Part shown: positions 11,463-52,882 of the stretch, one piece after another
Layout: the number at the start of each line of letters is the position of its first letter
Numbering within the stretch: position 1 is the stretch's first letter
DNA from: Acidobacteriota bacterium
GTDB taxonomy: Bacteria > Acidobacteriota > Blastocatellia > Chloracidobacteriales > Chloracidobacteriaceae
DNA length: 64,000 bases
Assembly (NCBI GenBank): GCA_016208495.1
Contig: JACQXX010000136.1
Location: 1 to 64,000, forward strand
Reading direction: 5' to 3'
Translations under genes and position numbers: made by a program
The notes under the pieces: generated by a model
Database searches by the model: none
What the model saw: only the letters and a program-made list of their open reading frames with translations
Told to the model about the DNA's origin: nothing

Positions 11463-11825
11463 AACACCCATAGCGGTACAATTACACAGGTGCGGCGGTC
11501 AAGGGGAACAACCTCACGGGGGCAACTCTTGACCGCCGTTTCTGCTTTCAGGGGCTGGTTGCTGGTGCTTGATCCTTTGAAATCAAGTCTTTGCCAGAAA
11601 CCAGGGCATCGGGCTTCGGCGCCTGGGATTGAAGAATTTCGGGCCGTCGGCTCAAGAATCACTCCTTTCTGACCGATGTCCTCAGTCCTGAGCCCCATAA
11701 GTGCCAGGATCAAAGAAATGTGAGCCTGTTTGGAGACAAGGAGCTGGGGAGACAAGGGGACACGGAGACAATTCACAAGGTTTGTAAGTTTGAATAAACT
11801 CCGATTGAGAGCGGGGGAAGGCGAC

Positions 11826-19946: not shown

Positions 19947-19987
19947 CGGCTGGGATGAAGATTCTTCATCCCAGCCGTTTCTTTTTT
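19947..19987 (+). terminator. Rho-independent terminator of the 1890-residue protein gene
   Basis: A perfect 14-bp stem (19947-19960 with 19964-19977) with a 3-base loop is followed by TTTCTTTTTT. A GGGTTCA-type element begins immediately after the T tract. Confidence 0.92.
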
Positions 19988-19988
19988 A

Positions 19989-20227
19989 GGGAGTCGGATG
20001 GAAATATCATACCATCAGGGTTCAGGGTTCAGGGTTCAGGGTTCAGAGCCAGATACTCCACGTTGAGTGGTACCCGCCAGTTCCCCAGTCTTCATCTTGA
20101 GTGGGATCAGTCAACTCATCGCCGAACCAGTCTTCATCTTGAGTGGGATCAGTCAACTCATCGCCGAAACCCTGAACCCCGAACCCTGAACCCGATTTCA
20201 GTGGGATTTTATTTTCTTCTGGGTCCC
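19989..20227 (+). mobile_element. GGGTTCA-flanked element, copy G1
   Basis: The 239-bp element starts GGGAGTCGG and ends CTGGGTCCC (short inverted ends) and is bounded on both sides by TTA (19986-19988 and 20228-20230), a likely 3-bp target duplication. Inside, tandem GGGTTCA units on the left face TGAACCC units on the right around a core containing a 42-base tandem duplication (20085 and 20127). The same element occurs inverted at 45990-46378. It has no credible gene and is inserted in the T tract of the preceding terminator. Confidence 0.78.
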
Positions 20228-20311
20228 TTAGAAGCAGGATTGAGAGCCATTCCTCATCCTTCATCCCTCATCCCTTGAAAGAACCCCGAACCCTGATATC
20301 AACTCACATGG

Positions 20312-28522: not shown

Positions 28523-28800
28523 CCATAGTCAGTAGTCAGTAGTTGATGAGTCAGTAGTCAGTAGTTGATGAGTCAGTGGTCAGTAGTCAGTAGACAAAAC
28601 CCGGATCGTTGAATCCGTGGAATTCTTAAAAAGAATTGTTTCTAAATAACTCAAATCGAACCAAATAAGCTTGACACAGGTTCCAGGACTCCAACACTCG
28701 ACTACTGACTACTGACTACTGACTACTGACTACTGACTACTGACTACTGACTACTGACTACTGACTACTGACTACTGACTACTGACTACTGACTACTGAC
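28523..28800. mobile_element. GACTACT-flanked element, copy D1
   Basis: Left arm AGTCAGT-type words (to about 28593) face a right arm of about 14 tandem GACTACT units (28700-28800). Between them is a 106-base core that recurs, about 85% identical by eye, in copy D2 at 52.6 kb. The core holds a small palindrome (AATTCTTAAAAAGAATT) and a -35-like TTGACA. The right end is seven bases from the glgC stop codon. Confidence 0.75.
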
Positions 28801-28807
28801 GAATTAT

Positions 28808-30085
28808 CTACACCACTGTCCCATCTGGAACAACAGCGCATTTCGGGATGATGATGATGCCATCCCGGATGACGTAATTTTCAGCCGTGGCTTCCTGAAC
28901 GCCTTTGTCATTTAACAACTGGACGTTATTTCCAATGCGGGCATCCTTGTCAATGATGGCTCGCTTGATGGTACAGTTGTGACCAATGCCGATATTTGGC
29001 TGGTTGGTTTCTTTATTGCGGCGCATTTCATCAATTGATTCATAATCATCCGCACCCATCATCAACACATGGTCGAGCCGGGAGCCGCTTTCAATGCGGC
29101 TGCGGATTCCAACCACGGAGCGTCGGATGATGGCTTCGTTGATGATGCAGCCTTCACAGATAATGGAGTCATGCGTTTGAGCATTGCGAATCTTGGTGCC
29201 AGGCAGAAACCGTGGCCGGGTGTAGATTTGCTTGCGGGTGTCAAAGAAATTGAAGCGGGGCAACACATCGGTGAGTTCGATATTGGCCCGGAAAAAGGCT
29301 CCAATCGTTCCGATGTCTTCCCAATACCCTTTGAACAGATAACTGCTCACTTTATAGTTATGAATTGCTGTTGGAATCACCTCGCGGCCAAAGTCAATTC
29401 GATCCTGCTGGTTGAGCAAGTCTTCGAGCACCTGCATGTTGAACACGTAAATCCCCATGGAGGCCAGATAGGGCCGCAATTCAGCTTCTTCGGGTGACAG
29501 TCCCATCAGTTCCGTATTGACGCGCATGCTTTCCAGCGCCTCACCTTTGGGTTTTTCCTTGAACTCGACGATTTTTCCGGTGTCGTCAACTTTGAGCAGG
29601 CCAAATTCCGAGGCTTCTTCAGGCGGCACCGCCGTCACTGAAACCGTCACATCAGCGTTGGCGTCCCAATGGGCATTGATGAATTTGGAATAATCCATTT
29701 TGTACAGGTGGTCACCCGACAAAATGATGATGGTGTCAGCCCCGACATCTTTGATATGACGGAAGTTCTGCCGAACGGCATCCGCCGTGCCTTGAAACCA
29801 GTGCGGGTTGTCAGGGGTTTGTTCGGCGGCCAGAATATCCACAAACCCCGAGGAAAACTGACTGAAGCGAAAGGTTCGGGCAATGTGGCGATTGAGTGAA
29901 GCCGAGTTAAATTGCGTCAGGATGTAGATTTTGATGATTCCAGAATTGATGCAATTACTTACCGGTATATCAATTAAGCGATACTTCCCGCCAAGCGGAA
30001 CGGCGGGTTTTGATCGTTCGTGGGTGAGAGGAAAGAGCCGCGTTCCTTGACCGCCTCCCAAAATCACAGCCAGTACATTGTCCAT
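28808..30085 (-). CDS. glgC: Glucose-1-phosphate adenylyltransferase (ADP-glucose synthase)
   Basis: GlgC makes ADP-glucose from ATP and glucose-1-phosphate, the committed step of glycogen synthesis. The N-terminus has the nucleotide-binding [12 protein letters not shown], then [20 protein letters not shown], the substrate region [10 protein letters not shown], and a C-terminal left-handed beta-helix with hexapeptide repeats ([21 protein letters not shown]). The Met at 30085 is chosen because the family begins just before the nucleotide loop; an upstream in-frame Met would add 38 unrelated residues. GGAGG lies 12 bases upstream. It is divergent from recG. No other glg genes are nearby. Allosteric activator specificity is not predictable here. 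Confidence 0.95.
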
Positions 30086-38055: not shown

Positions 38056-38057
38056 AA

Positions 38058-38223
38058 GGGTTTAGGGTTCAGGGTTCAGGGTTTCAAAACAGAAAAATGC
38101 TTTGTTTGCTACCAGCAGACTTTGCAGCATTTCAAGATCTAAACTTCGAAACCCTGAAAATGTTTAACCTTATGACCCCTGGTTTCCAAACCCTGAACCC
38201 TGAACCCTGAACCCTGAACCCTG
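38058..38223. repeat. Facing GGGTTCA / TGAACCC arrays with a short core
   Basis: GGGTTCA units start four bases after the Uma2 stop (38058-38083), and TGAACCC units (38190-38223) end five bases from the stop of the caspase gene. The core between them is about 105 bases and is unlike the core of G1/G2. Confidence 0.72.
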
Positions 38224-41697: not shown

Positions 41698-41774
41698 CTA
41701 TAGATTTCCAGATAAAGAAACCACGGAATACACGGAAAATAAATCCAGATTTTTCAATAATTTCTGAGATTCCA
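41698..41774 (+). repeat. 130-bp family repeat, copy R1 (right side missing)
   Basis: It begins CTATAGATTTCCAG and shares AAACCACGGAATACACGG and the segment CAATAATTTCTGAGATTCCA with other copies. It preserves the uninterrupted site into which the GGGTTCA element inserted in copy R3. Confidence 0.75.
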
Positions 41775-42656: not shown

Positions 42657-42738
42657 TATATGGATTTTCAGAATAAGAAACCGCGGGAATCACGGAATAC
42701 ACGGAAAATAAACCCAAATTTTTCAATGATTTCTGAGG
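42657..42738 (+). repeat. 130-bp family repeat, copy R2
   Basis: TATATGGATTTTCAGA followed by AAGAAACCGCGGG, CACGGAATACACGG and TTTTTCAATGATTTCTGAG. Same orientation as R1, on the other side of the ABC ATPase gene. Confidence 0.75.
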
Positions 42739-42800
42739 TTTTAACAAAATATAGGCTGAGGAAATTTTTTCCGGAAAGGTATTGGTTTTTCAAAAACATA

Positions 42801-45908: not shown

Positions 45909-45989
45909 GGGAAGACTCCACAAGGAATTGATATAGCTTTTCAGATAAATATTTCCTCCGTCCGCATTTCATTGGAATCTCAGAAATTA

Positions 45990-46378
45990 GGGACCCAGAA
46001 GAAAATAAAATCCCACTGAAATCGGGTTCAGGGTTCAGGGTTCAGGGTTCAGGGTTCCTAATCCCCCCGGATGTTGTGGGGTAAGCTCAAAAATGAATCC
46101 AAAAGCCCTAAAAATGGCCTGTTTTGAGCTGTTTTACCTGTCACCCACAAAAATGTGGTTTAGCTAAGTCCTTTGTTTTCAACATAAGACTAATCACCCC
46201 ACAAAATCCGGGGGGATTAGCAGGGTTCAGGGTTCAGGGTTTCGGCGATGAAGCAACTGATCCGACGCACGATGAAGACTGGGGAACTGGCGGGTACCAT
46301 TCAACGTGGACTATTTGGCCCTGAACCCCGAACCCCGAACCCTGAACCCTGATGGTATGATATTTCCATCCGACTCCC
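45990..46378 (-). mobile_element. GGGTTCA-flanked element, copy G2, inserted in R3
   Basis: This is the inverse of G1: it starts GGGACCCAGAAG, ends GGATGGAAATATC-complement and GACTCCC, and is bounded by TTA at 45987-45989 and 46379-46381, the duplicated target. It contains one copy of the 42-base unit that is doubled in G1 and is itself interrupted by a 163-bp element. Confidence 0.82.
46058..46220. mobile_element. 163-bp element with 25-bp terminal inverted repeats, nested in G2
   Basis: CTAATCCCCCCGGATGTTGT (46058) is mirrored by ACAAAATCCGGGGGGATTAG (to 46220): 24 of 25 terminal bases match. It interrupts a GGGTTCA array with at most one duplicated base. No coding capacity. Confidence 0.85.
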
Positions 46379-46623
46379 TTATTGAAAAATTTGGATTTAT
46401 TTTCTGTGTATTCCGTGTATTCCGTGGTTTCTTGTTCTGAAAATCTATAGTTTGAATGCGACAGGAGATTGCCGAATGGTTGGGGTGTTGCCTGGTGACA
46501 GAGCCGGGATGCGCCAATACAGTGAAGCGACCTTCCAAAATACTATTCGTTCCCTTTAGAATTTGGCAAACATCCCCACGGTTTCCTCTCAAAAACATAG
46601 GGTTTTAGAAAGCAGGTAAAAGC

Positions 46624-49960: not shown

Positions 49961-49989
49961 CAGGGTGACAAGGGGACAAGGGGACAAGG

Positions 49990-50146
49990 CATAAGCGCCA
50001 GGATAAGGATTTCAGGCCTGGAGGGTCGTCGTGTAATAGCCGTGGTGCGAAGCCCACGGTCACGGTCAGGACGAAACCCCAACCCAACAAGAACGTCATT
50101 CAATACCAACGGAAAAGGCACGGGCTTTCTTATCCTGGTGCTTATG
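49990..50146. mobile_element. 157-bp family TIR element, copy B
   Basis: CATAAGCGCCAGGATAAG (49990) and CTTATCCTGGTGCTTATG (50129-50146) are inverted with one mismatch. The core contains GCCGTGGTGCGAAGCCCACGG, with a small hairpin, and is near-identical to copy A at 11.8 kb. Flanked by 8-bp GGGACAAG words. Confidence 0.82.
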
Positions 50147-50265
50147 GGGTGACGGGGTGACAATGTGACAGGATGACAGGGGGACAAGGTGACAATTGTC
50201 ATTTGGTCACCTTGTCACCTTGTCATTTGTCACCTTGTCATTTGTCACCTTGTCATTTCATCACG
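50147..50265. repeat. GTGACA/TTGTCACC facing word array
   Basis: GGGTGAC/GGGACAAG-type words on the left face TTGTCACC/TTGTCATT words on the right, centred near AAGGTGACAATTGTC (about 50190). The right side runs into the last codons of the PilM-like gene. Confidence 0.7.
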
Positions 50266-52573: not shown

Positions 52574-52882
52574 TTATAGTTTGTAGTTAGTAGTCAGTAG
52601 ATGATGAGTCAGTAGTCAGTAGATAAAACCCGGATTGTTGAATCCGTGGAGTTCTTGAAAAGAATTGTTTCTAAATGACTCAAATCGAATAAAATACACT
52701 TGACAGATACTTCAAAACCCCAACACTTGACTACTGACTACTGACTACTGACTACTGACTACTGACTACTGACTACTGACTACTGACTACTGACTACTGA
52801 CTACTGACTACTGACTACTGACTACTGACTACTGACTACTGACTACTGACTACTGACTACAAGCTGGTACTACAAGCTGGTA
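52574..52882. mobile_element. GACTACT-flanked element, copy D2
   Basis: Left arm (TAGTCAGTAG words), a core nearly the same as D1 (GTTGAATCCGTGGA; AAGAATTGTTTCTAAAT), then about 19 tandem GACTACT units (52729-52860). The right end TACAAGCTGGTA occurs twice and touches the secretin stop codon. Confidence 0.78.

Follow-up and report, generated by a model that had tools for sequence, protein, structure and literature searches.

Nested non-autonomous mobile elements in an Acidobacteriota genome, including an ISAzo13-type MITE that carries tandem heptamer arrays

Results

The analysed window is a stretch of 64,000 nucleotides on contig C136 of an 8.4-Mb genome of the Acidobacteriota (Blastocatellia), which is assembled into 177 contigs. 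Reading of the sequence revealed three short mobile repeats nested in one another: a repeat of the R family (R3, 45932..46449, minus strand) is split by a second element, G2 (45990..46378, minus strand), which is itself split by a third, E (46058..46220, plus strand). The layout described in an earlier sequence-only reading was thereby confirmed. R3 has the ends TATAG(A/C)WTTTCAG... and would be about 125 bp long if uninterrupted. G2 comprises 389 bp with E and 226 bp without it, has the ends GGGAGTCGGATGGAAATATCATACC and GGGACCCAGAAGAAAATAAAATCCC, and is bounded by a 3-bp target duplication, TTA, at 45987..45989 (locus L027) and 46379..46381, again as had been read before. E is a non-autonomous element of 163 bp with 25-bp terminal inverted repeats, which at this site are complementary at 24 of 25 positions. 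It lies within the GGGTTCA array of G2 and is flanked by the 8-bp target duplication CAGGGTTC at 46050..46057 and 46221..46228, which the earlier reading had missed because it is hidden in the heptamer array. The absence of a transposase gene from the site also held, as none is found among the 10 window proteins around the nested repeats, and an Rfam search of the window from 41 to 47 kb returned no match.

Further copies of two of the repeats lie in the same window. G1 (19989..20227, plus strand) is 239 bp long, contains a duplicated 42-bp core unit and is bounded on both sides by TTA (19986-19988 and 20228-20230), in agreement with the earlier description. Two R-family copies, R1 (41698..41774) and R2 (42659..42740), are on the plus strand. 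R, G and E each form a multi-copy family within the 8.4-Mb genome, and the layout at the nested site is not a product of chance.

When the flanks of R3 are joined and one TAA is removed, the result matches an uninterrupted R copy, L063, at 121 of 126 positions without a gap and across the insertion point. L063 is situated on another contig and represents a paralogous, not an orthologous, empty site. R1 had been proposed as the preserved empty site; it does retain the uninterrupted G target CAATAATTTC, but it is a truncated paralogue, and L063 serves the purpose better. A second paralogous empty site is provided by locus L119, whose flanks TTTCGAATTTAT and GTCCTTTT, when joined, read TTTCGAATTTATGTCCTTTT, as in the intact L093. 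For the R family itself, 12 of the 30 inspected copies have both ends, TATAG...CTATA, and are 116-126 bp long. This suggests a TA-duplicating, MITE-like repeat, with the IS630/Tc1 type as a candidate class, in which the TA is inseparable from the element's own end. A search with the R end pattern (up to two mismatches) found no pair of ends at the distance expected of an IS.

The end pattern of G matches 104 times in this genome, while the reversed control pattern does not match at all, and at least 60 G loci are present genome-wide. The elements that were read include 35 complete ones (34 G copies and one IS, described below), 17 G loci that have only the left end and 10 that have only the right; an eleventh right-only entry is the IS on the other strand and was excluded from the G count. 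Exact 3-bp direct repeats flank 34 of the 35 complete elements, or 33 of the 34 G copies alone. Nearly all of these triplets are TAA (16) or TTA (15), together 31, and TCA, CAA and TAT occur once each. When the right flanks of the 34 G copies were shuffled 10,000 times, the mean number of such repeats was 13.8 and the maximum 23, compared with the 33 observed.

Without nested inserts, the G copies are 125-281 bp long, a range that leaves out the 309-bp copy L114. Their 25-bp ends are imperfect inverted repeats and are constant, and all length differences are internal, in a unit [GGGTTCA]n - core - [TGAACCC]n that is not IS sequence. Neither of the outcomes that the sequence-only reading had named as evidence against its interpretation, namely ends of variable length and R copies that carry G in all strains with no empty site, was found, and its view that the elements moved as discrete units is borne out by the constant ends, the internal length variation and the 3-bp duplications throughout the genome. 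Its exclusion of slippage stands for the movement of G, which is a discrete unit, but not for the heptamers within G, the copy number of which probably does change by slippage; the heptamers would thus be cargo and not the moving principle. Taken together, G is short, lacks a transposase gene, has terminal inverted repeats, is multi-copy and is flanked by a duplication of fixed length, and it therefore qualifies as a MITE. Roughly every second G copy has only one of its two ends. One-ended or replicative truncation was considered as the origin of these copies and was dropped, as both left-only and right-only copies occur.

The search with the G end pattern led to contig C23, where a pair of such ends is found 1292 bp apart (C23:10231-11522), with TTA on both sides. 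The enclosed open reading frame of 366 aa matches the domain DDE_Tnp_ISAZ013 (PF07592, E 2.4e-83) and the NCBIfam model ISAzo13 (NF033519) with 255 bits at a cutoff of 200. Per end, 19-23 of 25 positions are identical between this IS and G1 or G2, and two variant G copies, L092 and L093, agree with it over the first 19 bp. ISAzo13 elements are known to generate 3-bp duplications (PMC10045372). The matching ends and the identical duplication length indicate that G is probably an ISAzo13-driven MITE moved in trans, in line with the earlier proposal that an enzyme acting in trans was involved; the identity of that enzyme is what we infer. The interiors of G and of the C23 IS do not align and have nothing in common; G thus did not arise from this IS by simple internal deletion.

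The C23 IS is the only assembled ISAzo13 copy in the genome, and its transposase frame does not look intact over the full length. The N-terminal segment is read in a different frame from the rest of the transposase, which in comparison with the relative G008 lacks about 13-16 residues; therefore, the assembled copy is probably inactive. G would thus have been moved either by an intact ISAzo13 copy that is now unassembled or lost, or before the C23 copy was damaged. The broken appearance of this frame, together with the restriction of the similarity between G and the IS to the terminal 25 bp, could be taken to mean that G was dispersed by a different transposase that makes 3-bp duplications, such as an IS5/IS1031-type enzyme, and that the match to ISAzo13 is coincidental or the ends were borrowed by the IS. 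This is improbable in view of the identity of 23/25 on one side, the 19-bp agreement of L092 and L093, the target triplet common to G and the IS, and the complete lack of matches to the reversed pattern. IS5/IS1031 had in fact been suspected for G from its TNA target and was rejected when the pattern search found the ISAzo13-family IS with the same ends. Outside this genome, G ends were found only on two contigs of a Blastocatellia MAG (isolate SSF51), and there they form part of complete IS ends. In G009, the nearest 8.3-Mb relative and one of nine other genomes of the same family, no R, G or E was found among the 40 of 413 candidates that were scored, only matches to heptamer arrays.

E is present in about 20 recognisable copies. 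Of the 10 two-ended copies, 8 have 8-bp duplications, 6 of them exact and 2 with 7/8 identity; the exact ones include GAAATTCA at L042, which lies outside any array, and AAACCCTG at L032. With its 25-bp inverted ends and a duplication of fixed length, E is a second MITE, and it folds as a hairpin (z = -8.9). E-like elements with the ends CTGATCCCACCGGATTTTGTGGG occur in other Blastocatellia, and exact 8-bp duplications flank two of them (L179 and L180) in related genomes. An assignment of E to IS630-like elements (TA in CTAG) was rejected on account of the 8-bp duplications at L042, L032, L179 and L180. Seven one-ended E copies (L037, L038, L039, L041, L045, L046 and L047) have breakpoints that cluster at E positions ~123-141, immediately preceding the right inverted repeat, and the right end is lost in nearly all of them.

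An autonomous partner of E with a transposase was not found in its own genome, in 161 other genomes of the class, in a phylum sample of 396 or in viral contigs. Genome G146 contains multi-copy elements with the E-like ends CTGATCCCAC...GGGATCAG that are cut by contig ends. At ten loci (L171, L175, L183, L186, L188, L189, L191, L193, L195 and L197), these elements reach the contig end after ~115-140 bp, and a short coding tail, AFYTRMVALGTPFEFRHPKG, stops before the inverted repeat. The tail has no family match and may be the C-terminus of the missing transposase of E. The enzyme of E would be a DDE transposase with an 8-bp target similar to CAAATTTG, the consensus of a target matrix built from 15 insertion flanks of E-like elements in related genomes, none of which lies in a GGGTTCA array.

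In the tally of inspected flanks, 16 of 20 E copies adjoin GGGTTCA arrays, all in a single register (CAGGGTTC|E or GAACCCTG|E), with 9 copies facing one way and 7 the opposite way. On either strand, CAGGGTTC occurs only about 1.7-2.7 times per 10 kb in this genome, so E has a strong preference for it. Applied to a GGGTTCA array, the target matrix ranks CAGGGTTC first of the seven registers. By the same matrix, CAGGGTTC is only a mediocre site; the abundance of E in arrays therefore needs a further reason, which is perhaps survival in harmless intergenic DNA. Exact array 15-mers number 1501 in the genome and 2.5 on average per G copy, so that the ~60 G loci hold roughly a tenth of these sites. 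Four of the ~20 E copies are inside G (on C136, C19, C46 and C125), which, within the error of small numbers, is about the frequency expected from G's share of sites and is thus no special association. G would serve E as a landing site simply by carrying arrays. The G copy on C46 that carries E also contains a fourth small element of 186 bp with the ends TGTCATTACCC...GGGTAATGACA (L092:877-1062).

The copies could in principle have been spread not by transposition but by homologous recombination or gene conversion, with GGGTTCA arrays and R copies as the recombining sequences: arrays are abundant and adjoin most E copies, and a single inherited insertion spread by conversion would preserve one register. 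It is very improbable that this happened, however, as E is found in both orientations at the same register and also at non-array sites with its own 8-bp duplication (L042), and G is found at many unrelated sites with its own 3-bp duplication at each. The unrelated flanks have already largely refuted recombination. It is harder still to believe that the nested structure arose by slippage (heptamer expansion) or through misjoined contigs. It should be noted that the assembly is a draft and that some of its contigs break off within G (several cases, L015 and L016). Nevertheless, the genes to either side of the window copy are unique, and the ends, the duplications and the insertion of E recur independently, with E nested in G on three further contigs.

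The GGGTTCA arrays are not confined to G. Paired arrays have the order [GGGTTCA]n - core - [TGAACCC]n in 24 cases and the opposite order in none among the loci of this genome, including a pair in the window at 38057-38215, and the corresponding numbers for G009 (loci L138-L167) are 15 and 0. Many of the pairs in the own genome are G copies, whereas in G009 no G was found among the scored candidates and the cores of its pairs are mutually unrelated. At several G009 loci, arrays start at a stop codon or finish just before an ATG. Other short tandem repeats fill intergenic regions of the window (28526-28811, 52584-52864, 11747-11779 and 49963-50225) and several other loci; they comprise several heptamers (GTCAGTA, CACTAAC, GAGTAGC and TTCATTC), and some contain copies of G and R.

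Discussion

At the nested site, three different non-autonomous elements have very probably transposed one after another. First, R, an inverted-repeat element of ~125 bp ending in TATAG, would have inserted at a TA. Second, G, a MITE with 25-bp ISAzo13-type ends, would have entered R at TWA and duplicated 3 bp there, an ISAzo13 DDE transposase presumably acting on it in trans. Third, E, a 163-bp MITE of an 8-bp-duplication family, would have inserted into the GGGTTCA array of G at the register CAGGGTTC.

MITEs as such, MITEs that contain tandem repeats and repeat-targeting transposons all belong to known kinds of elements, but the G and E families appear to be new. Like bacterial MITEs in general (PMC10969869), they are short and intergenic, have inverted ends and would be moved in trans. 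The text of that review mentions neither "ISAzo" nor nested MITEs, and literature searches found no paper describing an ISAzo13 MITE. ISAzo13-family IS, which are related to the Zator elements of eukaryotes (PMC10045372), resemble G in the 3-bp target duplication and, for the IS of this genome, in the ends, whereas G has no transposase gene and its interior consists of unrelated heptamer arrays. The BrickBuilt MITE of Porphyromonas gingivalis (PMC4596501) is likewise intergenic and contains an internal tandem repeat of variable copy number, but its unit has 23 nt, in contrast to the 7-nt arrays inverted around a core in G, and it is not connected with ISAzo13. Among IS, those with REP sequences as their target (ISPa11, ISPpu9/10 and others, PMC1525189) resemble E in using a dispersed intergenic repeat as a landing site; E differs from them in being non-autonomous, in its 8-bp duplications and in its use of a single register within a heptamer array.

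The oriented heptamer arrays are explained less well. A speculative and rather unlikely reading is that they form an organised, oriented, genome-wide intergenic system that offers E a safe landing site and is spread anew by G, which carries one such unit between ISAzo13 ends. If this were true, one transposon would manufacture and disperse the target of another.

One methodological consequence is that an 8-bp duplication hidden in a tandem array is easily mistaken for slippage. An otherwise anonymous repeat family, G, is tied to a specific transposase family through its ends and its duplication, and target choice accounts for the nesting of elements in this genome, since G contains the CAGGGTTC that E requires.
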